From contig JAFMKA010000007.1 of the NCBI GenBank assembly GCA_017853175.1, positions 1 through 49,297 of the forward strand: DNA of 49,297 nucleotides. Reading direction: 5' to 3'. The stretch's first letter is position 1, and every line of letters starts with the position of its first letter. A model generated the notes under the pieces. The model saw only the letters and a list, made by a program, of their open reading frames with translations. It was not told the origin of the DNA and did not search any database. The DNA comes from Steroidobacteraceae bacterium. Lineage in GTDB: Bacteria > Pseudomonadota > Gammaproteobacteria > Steroidobacterales > Steroidobacteraceae. Both the position numbers and the translations under genes were made by a program. This document shows, one piece after another, positions 33,206 to 43,546 of this stretch.

Positions 33206-34224
33206 CAGCCTTTCTCGAACGCCATCCAATCGGGACTCCGCAGCGCATCGAGTTGCTGCCACAAATCACTCACATGCTCTTGCCAAAAGCGCGGACTCGA
33301 GAACCACGGGAAAGCTCGCGGGAATGCAGGATCCTCCCAGCGTGCCACCACCCAAGCCGAGTGATGCACCATACGCAGCGCCCGTAACGGCTCGATCAGG
33401 GCCAACTCCTGCGACTCGATATGATGAAACTCGCGATAGCCCGCGACGAGTTCCTGCCACTGCCCGCGCCGCTCATCGAGCGATCCGGAGAGGAACATCC
33501 ATAAATCCTGAATACGCGGTCCACTCATACAGTCGTCGAGATCGACGAAGACGGGGCCGCGTTCGTTCCAGAGCACGTTACCGAGATGACAATCGCCATG
33601 TAACCGAATCTTTCCGACCGGTCCGCAGTCTGCGAACACGTCGTCCACGTGCTCGATCAACTCTGCCGAGACCTCGGCGTACTTGTCGATCAAGCTCGCA
33701 TCCAGCGCACCGTCATTGATCATCCGCGCGAGAAACGCCGAATCGAGTAAGGCCTCGCGGGCTCGCCAACCCAGCCGTTCGCTCGTCAATGCCGGACGAT
33801 GATCGAATTTTCGGGTCGCACCGATCGCATGCATTCTTCCAAGCGTACGCCCGATGAGATCGGCGGAGCCGCGCGCGTCGATTTCTGCGGCTCGCGCTGC
33901 AATCCGCGGAAACACCGCAAAACGCAACCCTCCGTGCTGATGCAAGGTGCTACCGTCAAACGTCATGGGCGCAGCGACAGGTAAATCTCCGCCGACGAGC
34001 TCTGCAGCGAAGGCGTGTTCTTCCAAAATCTGCGCGTCGCTCCACCGCGCGGGTCGATAGAACTTGAGCACCAGCGTGCCATGGGTCAGCGAGCCAAGCT
34101 GATAAACACGGTTCTCGTAAGAGTTGAGAGCGAAGAGCCGAGCGTCGCATTCGATACCGAGCGACTCGGCCGCGGCAAGTACGGCGTCTGGCGTCAATTC
34201 TTCGAAAGGACGACTATCGATCAT
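33205..34224 (-). CDS. srkA: Stress-response serine/threonine kinase (YihE/SrkA type)
   Basis: It is a small eukaryotic-like kinase of the aminoglycoside-phosphotransferase fold. E. coli SrkA counters MazEF-linked death and acts in envelope stress. The 339-residue protein has HGDCHLGN (209-216) as catalytic loop and DLDD (228-231) as metal-binding site; YENRVYQ and LKFYRPARW near the N-terminus match SrkA. The ATG at 34224 follows the GMC stop directly (TGA GTG ATG); a GTG start at 34227 is the alternative. The phosphatase gene follows with a one-base overlap, so the two could act as an opposing pair. Confidence 0.93.
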   Translation of the reverse strand: MIDSRPFEELTPDAVLAAAESLGIECDARLFALNSYENRVYQLGSLTHGTLVLKFYRPARWSDAQILEEHAFAAELVGGDLPVAAPMTFDGSTLHQHGGLRFAVFPRIAARAAEIDARGSADLIGRTLGRMHAIGATRKFDHRPALTSERLGWRAREALLDSAFLARMINDGALDASLIDKYAEVSAELIEHVDDVFADCGPVGKIRLHGDCHLGNVLWNERGPVFVDLDDCMSGPRIQDLWMFLSGSLDERRGQWQELVAGYREFHHIESQELALIEPLRALRMVHHSAWVVARWEDPAFPRAFPWFSSPRFWQEHVSDLWQQLDALRSPDWMAFEKG

Positions 34225-34227
34225 CAC

Positions 34228-35820
34228 TCAGCAAGCCGTACCTTTGATGAGATCGGCTGCGCGCTCGGCGATCATGATCGTCGGAGCGTTCGTGTTGCCG
34301 CCAATGAGACGCGGCATCACGGAGGCGTCGATCACGCGTAGCGACTCGACACCCCGCACTCGCAGAGCGGGGTCGACCACCGATTGCTCGTCGCTGCCCA
34401 TCCGGCACGTACCCACGGGATGATAGATCGATTCCGCCTTTTCGCGGATCGCTTGGGCGAGCTCTGCATCGCTGCGCACCGAAGCACCCGGAAAGATTTC
34501 CGCGCCCTTCACATCATCAAACGCTCGCGCCGCCAGCAAATCTCGTGACATCTTCACACCCTCGATGAGGCGCTCTAGATCGCCCTCCGCGCTCAAATAA
34601 TTGGCGTGAATCAGAGGTGCGTCCGTCATTGACCCCGACCGCAACCCGATATGACCTCGACTCGCGGGGCGCAGAAAGCAGGCGTGCAGCGTATAACCGT
34701 GGCCGGGCATACGATTACGACCGTGATCGTCGAGCTGCGCCGGAACGAAATGGAACTGAATGTCTGCGCGCGAATCCGTCGCCAAACGAGAGCGGAAAAA
34801 TCCACCGACTTCGGCGATGTTCGATGCGCCGGGGCCCGAGCGCGTCAACAAGTACCGCAAACCCGCGAGCCCTTCCTCGAAGAGATTCATGTCATAGCTG
34901 ATAGGTCGCGTGCTTTTGTGCAAGGTGCAGTAGTCGAGATGGTCTTGGAGGTTACGCCCGACCTCTGGGTGCGGCACACGAACGGTTATTCCGACTGACT
35001 CGAGCGCATCGATCGGCCCGATACCCGAGCACATCAACAGTTGCGGAGAGTTGATGGCGCCTCCGCAGAGCAATACCTCACGACGAGCTCGTACGCGTTG
35101 GCGCCTCGAGTCACGCTCATACTCCACACCGACTGCTCGATCGCCCTCGAGTATCAACTGCTGTGCGGCCGCACCGGTGAGCACGCGCAAATTTGCACGC
35201 GACGAGGCAGGCCGCAGGTATCCGACCGCGGTGCTGCAGCGTCGGGCACGGCGCAGGGTGGCCTGATATCCGCCGAACCCCTGCTGATTCGCGCCATTGA
35301 AATCCTCGTTCAAAGAATATCCGCGCTCGACTGCAGCCTGCAGGAATACATCACTCAAAGCATTTCGGTGGCGCAGATCTTCGACGTGTAACGGACCGCC
35401 CGCACCGTGATAGACCGAGGCGCCACGCTGCTGATGTTCGGCTTTCCTGAAGTAAGGCAACACGGCATCGAAATGCCAACCCGATGCACCGAGTGCCGCC
35501 CATTCATCGTAATCAGCGGCATCTCCGCGTACGTAGCACATGGCATTGATGGAGCTGCTGCCACCCAGCACTCGGCCTCGTGGCCAATAAAGACGCCGAC
35601 CGAGTAATTGAGGTTCGGGCTCCGTGTCGTAGCTCCAATTGATCTTGCGATGACCGACGAGCCGAGCGAGACCTGCGGGCATATGAATGAGCGGATGCCA
35701 GTCGCGCCCACCCGCCTCGAGCAGCAACACTGACACCTGCGGATCTTCGGTCAGACGATTTGCGAGCACGCAGCCCGCAGACCCGGCACCGACGATGATG
35801 TAGTCGTACTCTCGACTCAT
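34228..35820 (-). CDS. GMC-family FAD-dependent dehydrogenase/oxidase
   Basis: A choline/alcohol dehydrogenase-like flavoprotein of 530 residues. The FAD motif GAGSAG (11-16) is near the start, followed by the GMC signature [18 protein letters not shown]. The C-terminal catalytic His is in [10 protein letters not shown], and [13 protein letters not shown] closes the flavin site. Alcohol oxidation is expected, but the substrate is unknown; an AlkJ-like alcohol dehydrogenase is as likely as a choline dehydrogenase. The ATG at 35820 is the family start ([16 protein letters not shown]). It lies 23 bases after pxpBC and directly before srkA, within the same operon. Confidence 0.93.
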
Positions 35821-35843
35821 GCGTTGCGAGTGTACCCGCCCGA

Positions 35844-37391
35844 TCATCGCTCGATCACGCGAAACCGGATCTTGGCCGATGGCGGTATCTGGCCGGCGAG
35901 ATCGAGGTGATGCTCCGCCACCACGGCGATCACGGGGTAGCCGCCCGTTACGGGATGATCGGCTAGAAGTAACACCGGCTGACCATCGTGAGGAACCTGG
36001 ATGGCACCGCTCGTCATACCCTCGCTTGGTAGCTCGTCGGTCTTCCGTCGTGTCAGCGTTTTTTCACCGTGGAGCCTCAACCCGATGCGGTTCGATTGTG
36101 GCGTTACCCGCCATACTTGGTTGCACAAGAGTTGCAGCGCGTCTTCGGTGAACCACTCATCACGGGGCCCGACAGAGATATCGATCACGACCTCGTCACC
36201 GGCCTTCGGCAGAACCTGCGCCGCATGCGCAGTGATGACCTCAGGCGTCGACCCGTGCGCTGCGCGACCAACCGGGAGGACCGAGCCCTTGACGACGGGT
36301 CCTGGGCCGAGCGCGGCGAGCACATCTCTCGACGAACTGCCTAGGGTCTGTCGTACGTCGATTCCGCCACGTACCGCGAGATAAGTCCGTACACCTTGCG
36401 TGGGATAGCCGAGCTTCACGAGATCACCCGATCTCAGGCTGATCGCCGTATTCATGGCAGCGTCTACGATTTCACCCGAGGCGCGAGTGATCGTGATCGT
36501 CACCGGCGCGCCTGCACAGGCGATCACGACGTCATCCGAACATGTGAACGCCCAATGACCGAATGCGATCTCGAGAGCAGCGAGATTCGGCGGATTTCCC
36601 GCTACGACGTTCGCCCGCTGCAGGGCCTCACGATCGAGGGCGCCCGAAGCCGAGACGCCGATCGCGGCATGACCCGGCCGACCGAGATCCTGCACGAAGG
36701 CAGGGAGCGTCGCAGCGATCACTTCCAGATAGGGACGATCGACAGGATTTTCTTTGGTGGGCGTCTCGGCGATTTGAGCACTGTCGCGAGCGACGAATTT
36801 CACTCGCGTACCCGGCGTGAGAATCGCCGGTGATGCGCGAGTGGGATCCCACATCGGCATCGACGTCGTGCCGATGATCTGCCAGCCACCCGGACTCGCT
36901 TGCGGATACACACCGCAGTACAGGCCACCCAGGGCGACTGACCCCTTGGGGACGATCGTCCGAGGTGTCGACTTTCGCGGTACCCGTAGCGTTGCATCAC
37001 CGCCAACGAGATAGCCAAAGCCCGGCGAAAACCCGCAGAACGCGACCGTGAATTCGCTCTCACCGTGTCGCCGAATCACCTCCTCGATACTGAGTCCGCA
37101 CAGTTGTGCGACCTCGGCGAGATCCTCACCGTCATAGCGCATCGGGATCTCCACCCGATTTCCTTGAGTGCGACTGCTTGCCGTGAGATCGCGCGCTGCA
37201 AGCGCCTCGATAAGCGTCGGCGGGGTCCAACGCGCGGGATCGAAACGCAGCATGAGTGTCTGCGCAGCGGGAAGAATCTCGCTGATCCCGTCGAGTGGCG
37301 CAGTCGTCAGGCTCGCGTGTAGCGCGAGCACATCATTGAGGGTCGCAAGTTCGACGAGCACCGTCGAACGATTGACGGATAAAACACGCAT
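35844..37391 (-). CDS. pxpBC: Fused 5-oxoprolinase subunits B and C (KipI-KipA fusion)
   Basis: It hydrolyses 5-oxoproline to glutamate with ATP, together with PxpA. Residues 1-205 are the PxpB/KipI domain, with [13 protein letters not shown] and the [16 protein letters not shown] stretch. Residues 220-515 are the PxpC/KipA domain (carboxyltransferase-like), with [18 protein letters not shown] and [19 protein letters not shown]. In E. coli and B. subtilis these are two proteins; here they are joined in 515 residues without an intervening stop. The ATG at 37391 lies 19 bases from the pxpA stop. It sits with pxpA and an NRAMP-like gene, the neighbourhood also seen in B. subtilis (ycsFGI-kipIAR). 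Confidence 0.95.
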
Positions 37392-37410
37392 CGTCAGGCG
37401 TAACGCCCTG

Positions 37411-38199
37411 TCATGAGGTGCTTCGCGACACGACGTGCGGCGGCAGAAAAGACGCTATGCCGACGCCCTCAGCCTCGAGACGGCGTCGTACTTCTCGCGC
37501 AATTGCGAGGGCAGCGGGACTATCGCCGTGAACACAGAGCGATTGCGCCTCGATTTGAATCACGCTGCCGTCGATGGCCTCAATCGTTCCGTGCACAGCG
37601 AGTCGGACCATGCGCGCGGCGATCAGGGAAGGATCGTGCAGTACGGCGCCGGGCTCCCGCCTCGGCACGAGCCGCCCCTCTTTCGTGTAGGCGCGATCTG
37701 CATAGGCCTCTGCGACGGCACGAAGGCCTGCAGCGCGGGCCTGAGCCAGGATGGGTGCGTTGGCGAGGCCCACCATGGCGAGCGAGGGATCGGTCGACTT
37801 GATGGCCTCGATCACCGCGGCGCCTTGTACGGGATCAACCGCGATCCGGTTGTAGAGTGCGCCGTGCGGTTTCACATAACTCACCGTCGCGCCGACGATA
37901 TTCGCAAGGCCCTTCAGTGCACCGATTTGATACGCCACATCCGCGATGAGATCTCCTGGCGCGATCTCCATATCGCGCCGACCGAAGCCGACGATGTCGG
38001 GATACGACACGTGAGCGCCGATAGCGACGCCACGCTGAGCGGCGACTTTGAGCGTTCGAAGGATTCCCGCCGGGTCGCCGGCGTGAAAGCCGCAAGCGAT
38101 ATTGGCACTCGAGACGATATCGATCATCGCCGCGTCGTCCCCCATCGACCACGCGCCGTAACTCTCGCCGAGATCGCTATTTAGATCGATCGTTTTCAT
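37411..38199 (-). CDS. pxpA: 5-oxoprolinase subunit A (LamB/YcsF family)
   Basis: It works with the PxpB-PxpC fusion to open 5-oxoproline, which forms spontaneously from glutamine. The 262-residue protein opens with DLNSDLGES, followed by [12 protein letters not shown] and [10 protein letters not shown], all diagnostic of the family; [17 protein letters not shown] appears further on. TTGGAAATC before the ATG contains a usable ribosome site. It follows the NRAMP-like gene by 16 bases and precedes pxpBC by 19, consistent with co-transcription. Confidence 0.96.
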
Positions 38200-38215
38200 T
38201 TTTTGATTTCCAAGC

Positions 38216-39439
38216 TTATGGGTCGAGCAGCGCGAAGATCGGTCCGATCGACTTGTATCCCATGTACCACGTGAGTGCGCAGACGAATACGCCGAGACTG
38301 AGTAGCCCTCGCGGATATCGATGGCCGCCCATCAAGTCGGAGCGAGCCCACGCGGCATAGAGAAAGATTGTTAAACCAATGGGGAGAATCAATCCATTCA
38401 ATCCGCCGACGAACACCAGCATTTTGGCGGGCGGCGTATTGATGACGAGATAGAGCGTCAGTGAGAGGCCAATGAAGCCGACGGTGATGAGATTACGGGC
38501 GCGCTCACTCAGGTTCGATTTAAAAATCGTGAGGAACGACACAGACGTGTACGCCGCTCCGATGACGCTCGTGAGCGCCGCTGACCAAAGAATAGCGCCG
38601 AATATTCTTAACCCCGCTTCACCGGCCGCCGCCTCGAAAGCTTGCGCCGCAGGATTGGCGCGATCACCCGAAACGTCGATCGTGGTGCCCGCATGCACCA
38701 CGCCGAGGACTGCTAGAAACAACACGAAACGCATCACGCCCGTGACGGCAATGCCCGTCAACGCTGCACGACTGACCGCAGACACGTTTTCAGGTCCGAC
38801 CATCCCTTTGTCGAGTAACCGATGCGCACCCGCATACGTGATGTAGCCGCCCACGGTACCGCCGATGATGGTGGTGATCGTCGCGAAATCGACTCGATCG
38901 GGGAAAACCGTCTGACGTAGCGCCTCACCGATCGGCGGCGAAGACATGACTGCGACATAGATCGTCAAGGCAATCATGGCGACGCCCGCGACGATGATCA
39001 CGCGATCAAACGCCATTCCCGCGCGTCGAGAAAGAAAGATACCGGTCGCGAGCAGCGCGCTCACTGCCCCGCCCCATTTCGCATCGAGCCCGACGAGCGC
39101 ATTCAAGCCGAGACCCGTACCACCGATATTGCCGATGTTGAAAAATAATCCGCCGATCACGACGAGCGCTGTGAGCAGATAGCCGGCGCCCGGAATCGCG
39201 GCATTGGCAAGTTCCGACGCCCGCATTCGCGTCAAGGTCACGATACGCCAGATGTTCACCTGAACGACGAAATCGATGAGAACCGAGACGAGAATGGCGA
39301 AGGCGAAGGCCGCTCCCAGTGTGCGAGTGAAGGTCGCCGTCTGGGTGATGAAGCCCGGGCCGATCGCTGAGGTCGCCATCAAAAAAATGGCTGCCGTGAG
39401 CGAAGCACGACGCGATGTCACAAATTCCGCCCCTGTCAT
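38216..39439 (-). CDS. NRAMP-like transporter without the metal-binding site
   Basis: A 407-residue inner-membrane protein with about 11 hydrophobic helices, belonging to the NRAMP superfamily. The TM1 lead-in GPGF (27-30) is conserved, but the DPGN motif that follows in metal transporters reads TRTL here (38-41). In TM6 the MPH motif reads GGY (197-199). The Asp, Asn and Met ligands of manganese/iron transporters are thus absent. It heads the oxoprolinase operon, like YcsG in B. subtilis, so transport of 5-oxoproline or a related compound is more likely than metal uptake. The ATG at 39439 is 44 bases past the groEL terminator; I see no convincing promoter between. Confidence 0.88.
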
Positions 39440-39485
39440 ACCGCAGCACGATACCCGAAGGCGCAAATTCGTCCACGCGGCCATA

Positions 39486-39517
39486 AAGAAAAAGCCCCGC
39501 CGGTTTCCCGACGGGGC
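39486..39517 (-). terminator. groL: Intrinsic terminator after groEL
   Basis: On the minus strand, GCCCCG/CGGGGC outer arms (39512-39517 with 39494-39499) and inner CGG/CCG pairs form a hairpin, followed by TTTTTCTT (39486-39493). It lies 37 bases past the groEL stop and separates it from the NRAMP-like operon on the same strand. Confidence 0.88.
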
Positions 39518-39553
39518 CTTTCATTCATCGGACGATGAGACGCGAGTCGCGTC

Positions 39554-41221
<1,668 letters not shown>

Positions 41222-41227
41222 TTAGGC

Positions 41228-41521
41228 TTACTTGCCTTCGATGATGGCCATGATGTCTTCCTCGCGCATGACGAGGAGATCTTCGCCATCGACCTTCACT
41301 TCGGTACCGCTGTACTTGCCGAAGAGGATCTTGTCGCCGACCTTGACGTCGAGCGCACGGACCGAGCCGTCTTCGAGAATCTTGCCCTTGCCGATGGCAA
41401 TGACCTTGCCCTGCGAGGGCTTTTCGGTGGCTGAGTCGGGGATGACGATACCGCCCGGGGAGGTGCGTTCCTCCTCCAGGCGCTTCACGATCACGCGGTC
41501 ATGAAGCGGACGAATTTTCAT
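41228..41521 (-). CDS. groS: Co-chaperonin GroES
   Basis: This 97-residue lid of the GroEL chamber starts [14 protein letters not shown] and has the mobile-loop stretch [26 protein letters not shown] and [13 protein letters not shown]. The ATG has AGGAG 7 bases upstream. It is the first gene of the operon with groEL. The upstream region holds a promoter overlapped by a degenerate CIRCE element. Confidence 0.98.
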
Positions 41522-41568
41522 GTTTCGCTCCTAAATACAACAGTTGACTGAAAGGATACCGGAGGGTG

Positions 41569-41595
41569 TTAGCACTCCCCCCATGTGGCTGCTAA
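41569..41595 (-). promoter_or_regulatory. Degenerate CIRCE element (HrcA operator) upstream of groES
   Basis: The plus strand has TTAGCACTC, a 9-base spacer, then GGCTGCTAA; the consensus is TTAGCACTC-N9-GAGTGCTAA. One arm is perfect and the other has two mismatches, with exact spacing. It starts immediately after the -10 element of the groES promoter, the usual position for HrcA repression of groESL. Confidence 0.75.
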
Positions 41596-41622
41596 TAATA
41601 GCGACGGAAAGTTCCATTTCAA
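41595..41622 (-). promoter_or_regulatory. groES promoter
   Basis: On the minus strand TTGAAA (41617-41622) is 16 bases upstream of TATTAT (41595-41600), a good sigma70-type pair. The -35 is embedded in CCCTTGAAA, which matches the sigma32 -35 consensus CTTGAAA, but no sigma32 -10 (CCCATnT) is found at the right distance. The CIRCE element overlaps its downstream end. Confidence 0.6.
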
Positions 41623-41692
41623 GGGCGGACCCGGCTATCCTGTTTTGCTCTTCGCAGGCCGGTTTTTGGACCCTCAAAACTCCGCTAACTCA

Positions 41693-43546
41693 ATGAAATT
41701 AAAGACTTTATCGCTGTCGGGACTCGCTCTGATCGCGAGTTTTTTCTCGGGATCGACGTTCGCCCAGCTCGGCGAATCCGAGTTTCTACCCCCCGACCAG
41801 GCGTTTCGGGTCGAGGTGGCGGCCCAAGGCGCCGACATGATTCGGGTCGATTTTCTGGTGACCCCCGGTTATTACCTCTACAGGCATCGGTTCAACTTCA
41901 GCCTCGATACGGCCGCAGGCACCCCGAACGCCACGCTCGGCTCGCCCGATATTCCGGAAGGTGAGTGGAAGGAAGACGAGTTCTTCGGGCGCCAGCAGGT
42001 GTTCCACGAGGGCGTCAGCGTCTCGATTCCGGTATCGCGTACGCCCGGTGGCGTCCTCGAACTGCCGATCATCGTCGGCCTGCAGGGCTGTGCCGATAAA
42101 GGTCTCTGCTACCCGCCTGAAAAGCGTCGTTTCAAAGTGTCGCTGCCGGCGACGAACTCGGCGATCGGTGGTGACCTCGGCGATCGCTCGACCGACCGCG
42201 CATCATCCGCATCGGCGAGAGCGCCGTCTGGCAGCGCTCAAGGCTTCGTCTCAGAGCAAGACCGACTCGCCGAACTCATCCGCACGGGTCATCTGTCGTT
42301 CGTACTTCTCACGTTCTTCGGGCTGGGTTTACTTCTCGCGTTCACGCCCTGCGTGCTGCCGATGGTGCCCATCCTCTCCGGCATCATCGCCGGACAAGGC
42401 AGTGGCGTCACCACGGGCCGTGCATTCGCACTCTCGCTCTCCTACGTGCTGGGTATGGCGGTGATGAATACGCTTGCGGGCGTCGCCGCAGCCGCTGCAG
42501 GGCAGCAGATCCAGGCCCTATTCCAGCAACCTTGGATCATCATGCTCTTTTCTTTGATCTTCGTGGCCCTCGCGCTGTCGATGTTCGGGCTCTTCACCAT
42601 CCAGCTGCCCGCCTCGCTGCAAACTCGTCTGAGCGAAGTCAGCAATCGTCAGCGTGCCGGCACCTTCGGCGGTGTCGCCGTGATGGGCGCCTTGTCCGCG
42701 TTAATCGTTTCGGCCTGTGTGGCACCGCCTCTTTTCGCTGCGCTCGCGGTGATCGCGCAGACCGGCGATATGGTACGCGGCGGCAGCGCGCTCTTCGTCA
42801 TGTCACTCGGCATGGGTGTGCCGCTGCTCGTCATCGGCACTTCCGCCGGTCGTCTGCTGCCCAAAGCGGGCGGTTGGATGGATACGGTCAAAAAATTCTT
42901 CGGCGTGCTAATGCTCGCGGTAGCGGCGTGGATGTTGAGCCGCCTCGTCGAAGATCGCGGGTCGTTGTTGCTGTGGGCCGTACCTGCCAGCATCGGCGCG
43001 TGGCTGCTCCTCAGCGAGTTCAAAACGCGCTCGATCACCGGCTGGGTCATGCGCGGTCTCGGTGCAGTTCTCGGGCTCTATGCACTCGCCTTGATCGCCG
43101 GCGTGTTCTTAGGCGGACGCGATCCGCTCGCACCGATCCCACAGCTGGCCAAACCCGAGAAAACACTTCAGTTCACCGTTATCAAGACGGTGGATGACCT
43201 CGATCGTGTGATCGCCGCGGCAGCGGCCGAAGGTCGTCCGGCCATGCTCGATTTCTATGCAGACTGGTGCGTCTCCTGCAAAGAAATGGAGCGCTACACC
43301 TTTACGGATACTGCAGTGCAAGCCGCGCTCGCGAATGCCGTTTTGCTCAAGGCCGACGTCACCGCGAACGACGAAGCCGATCAGGCTTTGCTACGCCGCT
43401 TCGAAATCTTTGGACCACCGACCATCGCGTTTTGGGGGCCTGACGGCGTCGAGCGAAAGAACTACCGCGTCGTCGGCTTCATGAAGGCCGATGAATTCGC
43501 GCGCGTCGCAGCCGAAGCGACCGGCAACTCCGATACGATCAAGTAA
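41693..43546 (+). CDS. dsbD: Thiol:disulfide interchange protein DsbD
   Basis: It passes electrons from cytoplasmic thioredoxin to periplasmic disulfide-isomerising and cytochrome-maturation proteins. The 617-residue protein has a signal peptide (cleavage near TFA|QLG). Its three modules are the N-terminal domain with the cysteine pair C133/C139 (GCADKGLCYPP), a central eight-helix membrane domain with C220 (FTPCVLPM) and C342 (SACVAPPL), and a C-terminal thioredoxin domain with CVSC (526-529). I chose ATG 41693 because the signal starts there; the frame open to 41585 covers the CIRCE element. It is divergent from groES and is followed 21 bases later by a TlpA-like thioredoxin gene. Confidence 0.96.
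   Translation: MKLKTLSLSGLALIASFFSGSTFAQLGESEFLPPDQAFRVEVAAQGADMIRVDFLVTPGYYLYRHRFNFSLDTAAGTPNATLGSPDIPEGEWKEDEFFGRQQVFHEGVSVSIPVSRTPGGVLELPIIVGLQGCADKGLCYPPEKRRFKVSLPATNSAIGGDLGDRSTDRASSASARAPSGSAQGFVSEQDRLAELIRTGHLSFVLLTFFGLGLLLAFTPCVLPMVPILSGIIAGQGSGVTTGRAFALSLSYVLGMAVMNTLAGVAAAAAGQQIQALFQQPWIIMLFSLIFVALALSMFGLFTIQLPASLQTRLSEVSNRQRAGTFGGVAVMGALSALIVSACVAPPLFAALAVIAQTGDMVRGGSALFVMSLGMGVPLLVIGTSAGRLLPKAGGWMDTVKKFFGVLMLAVAAWMLSRLVEDRGSLLLWAVPASIGAWLLLSEFKTRSITGWVMRGLGAVLGLYALALIAGVFLGGRDPLAPIPQLAKPEKTLQFTVIKTVDDLDRVIAAAAAEGRPAMLDFYADWCVSCKEMERYTFTDTAVQAALANAVLLKADVTANDEADQALLRRFEIFGPPTIAFWGPDGVERKNYRVVGFMKADEFARVAAEATGNSDTIK

Follow-up and report, generated by a model that had tools for sequence, protein, structure and literature searches.

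An Nramp-related protein of the PxpT/YcsG kind heads a 5-oxoprolinase operon in a Steroidobacteraceae bacterium and probably takes up 5-oxoproline

The first gene of a 5-oxoprolinase operon encodes an Nramp-related protein, PxpT, that lacks the canonical metal ligands and probably imports 5-oxoproline (pyroglutamate) or a small lactam acid much like it. The earlier note on this DNA had proposed a 5-oxoproline carrier, and 5-oxoproline is indeed supported as the likeliest substrate because the metal site is lost, the operon context recurs in several phyla, relatives of D-glutamate cyclase occur in related loci, and deletion of pxpT in C. glutamicum has a growth phenotype on this compound. The carrier idea is not new, as it has already been published for C. 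glutamicum PxpT (PMC13274462). The protein described here adds a member to the known PxpT/YcsG kind, among whose relatives 5-oxoproline and manganese are in conflict.

The pxpT gene, its operon and its kinship

The window, i.e. the whole stretch of 49,297 nucleotides that was analyzed, carries on its minus strand, in this order, groES and groEL (both recognized by eye), pxpT, pxpA, a fused pxpBC and a gene for a GMC oxidoreductase. The following features are referred to below.

38216..39439, minus strand: pxpT (ycsG-type), Nramp-related transporter of 407 aa; PF01566; 49% identity with B. subtilis YcsG as contained in 9a52 (400 residues); model pLDDT 92.7
39350..39361, minus strand: TM1 site G27-P28-G29-F30, most likely in the columns of canonical DPGN; helix broken at 25-27
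39128..39139, minus strand: TM3 residues N101 to N104, aligned with the canonical Asp (131) and Glu (134)
38843..38863, minus strand: TM6 site G193-G194-T195-V196-G197-G198-Y199, in the columns of canonical G-ATVMPH; helix broken at 196-198
37411..38199, minus strand: pxpA (LamB/YcsF), 5-oxoprolinase subunit; PF03746 at 1e-98; 368.8 bits with the PxpA model NF003814 (cut-off 226)
35844..37391, minus strand: fused pxpBC, 5-oxoprolinase subunits (CT_C_D + CT_A_B); PF02682 and PF02626; 241.6 bits with TIGR00724 (cut-off 230.2)
34228..35847, minus strand: GMC oxidoreductase (choline-dehydrogenase-like), overlapping pxpBC by 4 bases
39485..39521, no strand assigned: GC-rich inverted repeat in the groEL-pxpT spacer, seen in the sequence and followed by T on the minus strand

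The pxpT reading frame starts with ATG at 39439. Its product belongs to PF01566 (Nramp; 6.3e-22, 78.5 bits against a cut-off of 29.8) and scored 23.1 bits with NCBIfam NF037982, the Nramp metal-transporter model, which is below the cut-off of 50. The genes pxpA and pxpBC follow directly downstream, bearing out the earlier statement that pxpT is linked to pxp genes and heads a 5-oxoprolinase operon; as detailed further below, this linkage is specific to the PxpT type. The operon with pxpA, pxpB and pxpC that is expected of a PxpT/YcsG branch member is present for the window gene, with the fused PxpBC scoring below the cut-offs of both the separate PxpB and the separate PxpC model. The oxidoreductase gene is probably co-transcribed with pxpBC and is not a conserved operon partner; a comparison with 97 related pxpT loci at 1e-8 gave no similar gene. 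The inverted repeat likely represents the groEL terminator and was flagged on the plus strand only in a terminator scan. A promoter scan of positions 34000-41700 returned a single promoter-like site, located upstream of groES, and none near pxpT. No Rfam element reached the gathering score within the window. The genes accB and accC are situated about 5 kb from the operon on the other strand, and the operon itself contains no biotin carboxylase. In the assembly to which the window belongs, which is 81% complete, pxpT was the only PF01566 gene found; neither a canonical MntH nor a D-glutamate cyclase (PF07286) was seen in it.

Among structures, the window protein matched the integrative model 9a52 best, in its YcsG chain (Z 61.2); at 49% identity over 400 residues, B. 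subtilis YcsG and the window protein are orthologues. Overlays on DraNramp and EleNRMT gave Z values of about 42 each, at 13-14% and 19% identity, respectively. EleNRMT was also the top solved structure found with the family sequence profile (6.2e-12); this profile was required, as phmmer with the single window protein gave no match in the PDB. A quick tree was built from 76 proteins of PF01566, with YcsG represented by B. tequilensis. The window protein fell into a clade of 22 (SH-aLRT 100) that also includes A. baumannii MumT and the B. tequilensis YcsG, apart from the canonical proteins, which formed a clade of their own; this tree comes with the caution that L171, next to the PxpT clade, is a long branch. 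Identity and common clade thus both support the kinship with YcsG that had been proposed. The additional proposal that the protein evolved from a metal transporter fold found no support. In the rooted tree reported in a preprint (PMC12873925), the Nramp-related proteins are paraphyletic, with the canonical metal transporters branching from within them. The same source places MntG in its 'G-motif 3' group and terms it a hypothesized Mn importer.

Residues at the canonical metal and proton positions

Nine canonical positions of DraNramp were compared with the window protein: D56, N59, A227, M230, H232, H237, D131, E134 and Q378. The window protein has G, F, G, G, Y, G, N, N and G at these places. 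All nine are replaced in 22 of 22 PxpT-type proteins, by the same letters as in the window protein save for one S in place of N101. The letters DPGN and MPH, which make up the metal site of a canonical Nramp (SLC11), occur nowhere in the window protein, and the acidic TM3 residues of DraNramp (D131 and E134) have N101 and N104 as their counterparts. Two earlier claims, that metal ligands are missing and that GGY stands at the columns of MPH, thus proved right. A third claim, that coordination of manganese or iron is impossible by the known mechanism, holds insofar as the canonical ligands are absent, but 'impossible' is too strong because MumT, which shares the motifs, shows Mn phenotypes, as does YcsG/MntG. 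Nramp-related proteins have been described as devoid of the DPGN and MPH motifs (PMC12873925, preprint); therefore, the lack of metal ligands was already known for such proteins.

These positions bear on a different function, namely that of a manganese importer, as published for MumT and MntG/YcsG, which would feed a metal-dependent 5-oxoprolinase operon. The canonical ligand columns hold no Asp, Asn, Met, His or Glu except for Asn at the two TM3 places, which speaks against manganese, and we consider such an importer unlikely. In its favor, MumT and B. tequilensis YcsG carry motifs identical to those of the window protein, and no other PF01566 gene, hence no canonical MntH, was seen in the 81%-complete genome. 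B. tequilensis, however, possesses a DPGN/MPH-type MntH besides YcsG.

Canonical Nramps have two similar motifs in TM1, GPG(Y/A) and, eleven residues on, DPGN, and the TM1 register can therefore slip on sequence alone. The earlier note had placed TRTL (residues 38-41) at DPGN with the GPGF frame kept. Our data indicate that it is probably GPGF (residues 27-30), not TRTL, that occupies the DPGN place. In an L-INS-i alignment with 21 DPGN/MPH proteins, 15 of which are long enough to span both TM1 motifs, the TM1 segment of the window protein paired ungapped, with GPGF on DPGN (D to G27, N to F30). The same register resulted from an earlier alignment with partial rows, where a gap occurred further along, from a profile-profile alignment against 14 canonical proteins, which had no gaps there, and from four of the five HMMER alignments to solved structures that were shown (BfraNramp and three DraNramp variants). 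Two alignments disagree: HMMER with EleNRMT and the profile-profile alignment with DDDPSG-type proteins both put GPGF on the first GPG, each at the cost of a 7-residue gap. The profile alignment with DNDAG-type proteins starts only at residue 39, and the one with GPGT/VPYN-type proteins is gapped in TM1; neither favors one register over the other.

Structural information came from an AlphaFold model (mean pLDDT 92.7, pTM 0.90), the input of which was a 52-row alignment drawing on a chosen 51 of the 80 loci from other phyla described below. TM1 is broken at residues 25-27 and TM6 at 196-198 in this model, and residues 38-41 lie within a continuous helix (28-70). The overlay of the model on DraNramp 8e60 starts with model residue 15 at chain residue 44, which puts residue 27 at D56 if there is no later gap; the overlay on EleNRMT starts with residue 11 at 41 and, with the same proviso, also speaks for the new register. 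TRTL at DPGN was rejected on balance, as the ungapped canonical alignments, the model helix and the overlays speak against it. The earlier assignment is thus probably wrong; the GPGF motif is present as described, and it stands most likely at DPGN itself. Neither register brings an Asp or Asn to the DPGN place, and no Asp occurs in residues 20-45, so the absence of metal ligands does not depend on which register holds. The new register singles out G27, F30, G194, G197, Y199, N101 and N104 as residues of interest, rather than residues 38-41.

Both motifs, GPGF-type in TM1 and GGY-type in TM6, were present in 101 of 101 PxpT-type proteins, comprising the window protein, 20 proteins found by tblastn and the best 80 of the matches listed from other phyla. 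One of the two motifs had served as the search pattern for those 80; the 20 tblastn proteins provide an independent check, and all of them contain both. Judged from the sequences, the motif pair is more than chance. The letters DPGN occurred in one of the 101 proteins (L092), near residue 250 and far from TM1. Acidic residues were found in at least 90% of the proteins at columns 76, 145, 210 and 255. Of these, only 210 belongs to TM6, where it sits at the far end of the second half, and no acidic residue was conserved to this degree at the TM1/TM6 breaks or the TM3 places. M21, H206 and N104 are strongly conserved.

This pattern is relevant to the idea that metal and organic acid are both carried, either as a metal-5-oxoproline complex or as 5-oxoproline with a metal as coupling ion. 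Metal-citrate carriers are an analogue for such joint carriage, and M21, H206 and N104 might serve as ligands. The nearest conserved acidic residue, D210, is at the far end of TM6b, and joint carriage appears very unlikely to us, even though it would reconcile the 5-oxoproline and Mn phenotypes reported for one family (PMC13274462, PMC10448178, PMC5050338).

Linkage of pxpT-type genes to 5-oxoprolinase genes

The neighborhood of PF01566 genes was evaluated in 150 genomes, in which 58 genes scored above the cut-off (18 of 76 rows were below it and were left out). All 5 PxpT-type genes, the window's own included, had a PF03746 gene no more than 5 kb away. The corresponding count was 0 of 21 for DPGN/MPH Nramps, 14 of which occur in genomes having PxpA, 0 of 11 for the DDDPSG type, 0 of 9 for the DNDAG type, 0 of 9 for others and 1 of 3 for the GPGT/VPYN type. 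Chance adjacency of pxpT and pxpA was set aside on the basis of this control. A second set consisted of 25 named genomes selected for a pxp-linked copy. None of their 7 DPGN/MPH proteins (nearest distance 33.6 kb) and none of 7 other rows at 110-268 bits lay within 5 kb of PF03746, compared with 25 of 27 full-length rows at 59-90 bits; the rows were grouped by score, and 8 below-cut-off rows and one fragment were left out. The absence of canonical Nramps from the vicinity of pxpA in both sets (0/21 in the 150 genomes and 0/7 in the 25 others) is a further argument against a manganese importer. So is the lack of any Rfam Mn or Mg riboswitch at the gathering score in the window and 16 related loci; a T-box, a c-di-GMP riboswitch and a tRNA were detected in these 16 loci and were not linked to the operons.

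Among 398 genomes of the phylum, 15 possess a homologue at 1e-5 (own included), and 14 of these are PxpT-type. Genes for pxpA, pxpB and pxpC were found within 6 kb in 11 of the 14 (own included). The 150- and 398-genome draws share genomes, and the other four linked PxpT-type genes of the 150 are also among the 398. Around the remaining three PxpT-type homologues (L027-L029; 36-38% identity), no pxp gene was present in the flanks examined, about 6 kb to one side and 3-6 kb to the other; PF03746 is present elsewhere in two of their genomes and in one it is not. L027, L028, L029 and L035 represent a PxpT-type side branch with no pxp neighbors in the stretches examined. In the alignment, L027-L029 are shorter by two residues behind the GGY of TM6 and carry Q in place of H206, and the L028 frame contains one internal TAG.

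Loci from other phyla were ordered by their similarity to a pxp-operon member from Fusobacterium, so that they indicate breadth and not a rate or a neutral sample. In the best 80 of the matches listed, pxpB was found in 80, pxpC in 79 and pxpA in 71 (once on the other strand). The PxpT-type family spans at least seven phyla here, to which the published C. glutamicum PxpT adds Actinomycetota as an eighth (PMC13274462). Genes of the pxpT type were also seen in records of plasmids from Klebsiella, Citrobacter and Rhizobium, in a collection that includes some chromosome-sized records. One Citrobacter record that was examined contains the whole operon with IS1 and IS5 transposases nearby.

A second clade of PF01566, with IGPGT in TM1 and GTT(I/V)VPYN in TM6 (i.e. 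GPG in place of DPGN), likewise occurs beside pxpA. The motif pair was parsed in its members except for L211 and L216. Among the 15 closest members, pxpA adjoins in four, namely L151 (G075), L030/L207 (G396), L208 (G349) and L209 (G380); the other 11 lack pxp genes in the flanking 1.5 kb. L030 is the fifteenth homologue of the 398-genome draw, which belongs to this other clade and is also located beside pxpABC.

A relative of D-glutamate cyclase was present in 32 of the 97 related stretches (PF07286 in L031) and was not shown by the other 65. D-glutamate cyclase makes 5-oxo-D-proline. A biotin carboxylase was also observed in or near the pxp operon in 32 of the 97 stretches (L017-L026, L031-L117); 5-oxoprolinase has no known requirement for this enzyme. 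Its frequency would fit export of 5-oxoproline or glutamate, or carriage of another lactam or urea-like compound of the operon, and the A. baumannii operon is reported to be tied to urea use (PMC5050338). The window operon lacks a biotin carboxylase of its own, however, and the C. glutamicum mutant is reported not to grow on external 5-oxoproline, which fits import (PMC13274462). Export or carriage of another compound is therefore regarded as highly improbable.

Substrate and comparison with known systems

We propose that PxpT is a secondary carrier of the LeuT/APC fold, in the PxpT/YcsG branch of PF01566, that would import 5-oxoproline, which PxpA and PxpBC would then open to glutamate with ATP. 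In amino acid carriers of the APC type, the carboxylate is held at the backbone of helix breaks. By analogy, the carboxylate of the substrate may rest on the glycine-rich backbone of the TM1 and TM6 breaks, lined by F30, Y199, N101 and N104. Growth data on the homologue, named PxpT in a 2026 paper, agree with this proposal. In-frame deletion of pxpT in C. glutamicum is described to abolish growth on 5-oxoproline; pxpT alone restored it, and growth on glucose was unchanged (PMC13274462). The evidence is a growth phenotype, and according to that report a role in uptake is likely and metal transport is not excluded.

The published phenotypes of other relatives favor manganese. Deletion of mumT is reported to lower cellular Mn and its return to restore it, as determined by ICP-MS and complementation (PMC5050338; PMC11796373). 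For B. subtilis, overexpression of YcsG is stated to raise cellular Mn, MntR to bind the operon promoter, and the triple mutant mntH mntA ycsG to be obtained only with ectopic ycsG (PMC10448178). An efp mutant with induced mntG reportedly grew without added iron or manganese (PMC13055313). On the other side, high Mn is reported to induce the YcsG promoter while MntH and MntABCD go down (PMC10448178), which would be odd for an importer serving under scarcity. The same B. subtilis paper raises a possible polar effect in earlier work on 5-oxoproline.

Uptake of 5-oxoproline remains our preferred function for the window protein. It is also conceivable, although we hold this wider proposal tentatively and with somewhat less than even confidence, that the entire PxpT/YcsG/MumT branch carries 5-oxoproline and no metal, that the manganese names of MntG and MumT reflect indirect effects, and that a separate clade, the GPGT/VPYN one, has also become attached to pxpABC. 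If so, the superfamily would have carried organic acids from early on and acquired the DPGN/MPH metal site later, and two published accounts of Mn uptake, one of them on virulence, would need a second look. The annotated copies seen here go by 'NRAMP family divalent metal transporter' or similar names, or as hypothetical proteins; if they are 5-oxoproline carriers, the transporter names are wrong.

Compared with canonical MntH/Nramp (DraNramp), the window protein has the fold in common, whereas all nine compared metal and proton positions differ. The group of EleNRMT, an Nramp-related Mg transporter, is described as retaining the TM1 Asp in a DxxG motif together with TxxA/T in TM6 (PMC8806188); the window protein is without this Asp and has GPGF and GTVG at these places, the TM1 register being disputed.

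A. baumannii MumT, published as the Mn importer of a urea operon (PMC5050338), is closer, with 60% identity to the window PxpT in tblastn (59% in the alignment) and the motifs GPGFLTQT and GGTVGGY; the locus was called mumT from gene order and kinship, not from the record name. It comprises a LysR regulator, the transporter, PxpA, D-glutamate cyclase, PxpBC and biotin carboxylase. This region (L031:5709-13169) corresponds to the mum ('manganese and urea') operon of the literature. With genes for PxpA, fused PxpBC and a homologue of D-glutamate cyclase, it is a 5-oxoproline operon to which a biotin carboxylase is added.

YcsG/MntG of B. subtilis, published as a Mn importer (PMC10448178), belongs to the same kind of operon as the window gene. 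B. tequilensis YcsG, which stands in for the B. subtilis sequence in the motif comparison, has the motifs of the window protein; the gene order is pxpA-ycsG-pxpB-pxpC there, the stretch also containing a relative of D-glutamate cyclase, and pxpT-pxpA-pxpBC in the window. C. glutamicum PxpT (cg1142), likened to the window protein here by its published description, is a member of the Nramp family with a reported identity of 50% to YcsG. Its operon includes a GntR regulator, PxpR, which has no counterpart beside the window operon, and the gene heads pxpT-A-B-C in the same order as in the window (PMC13274462).
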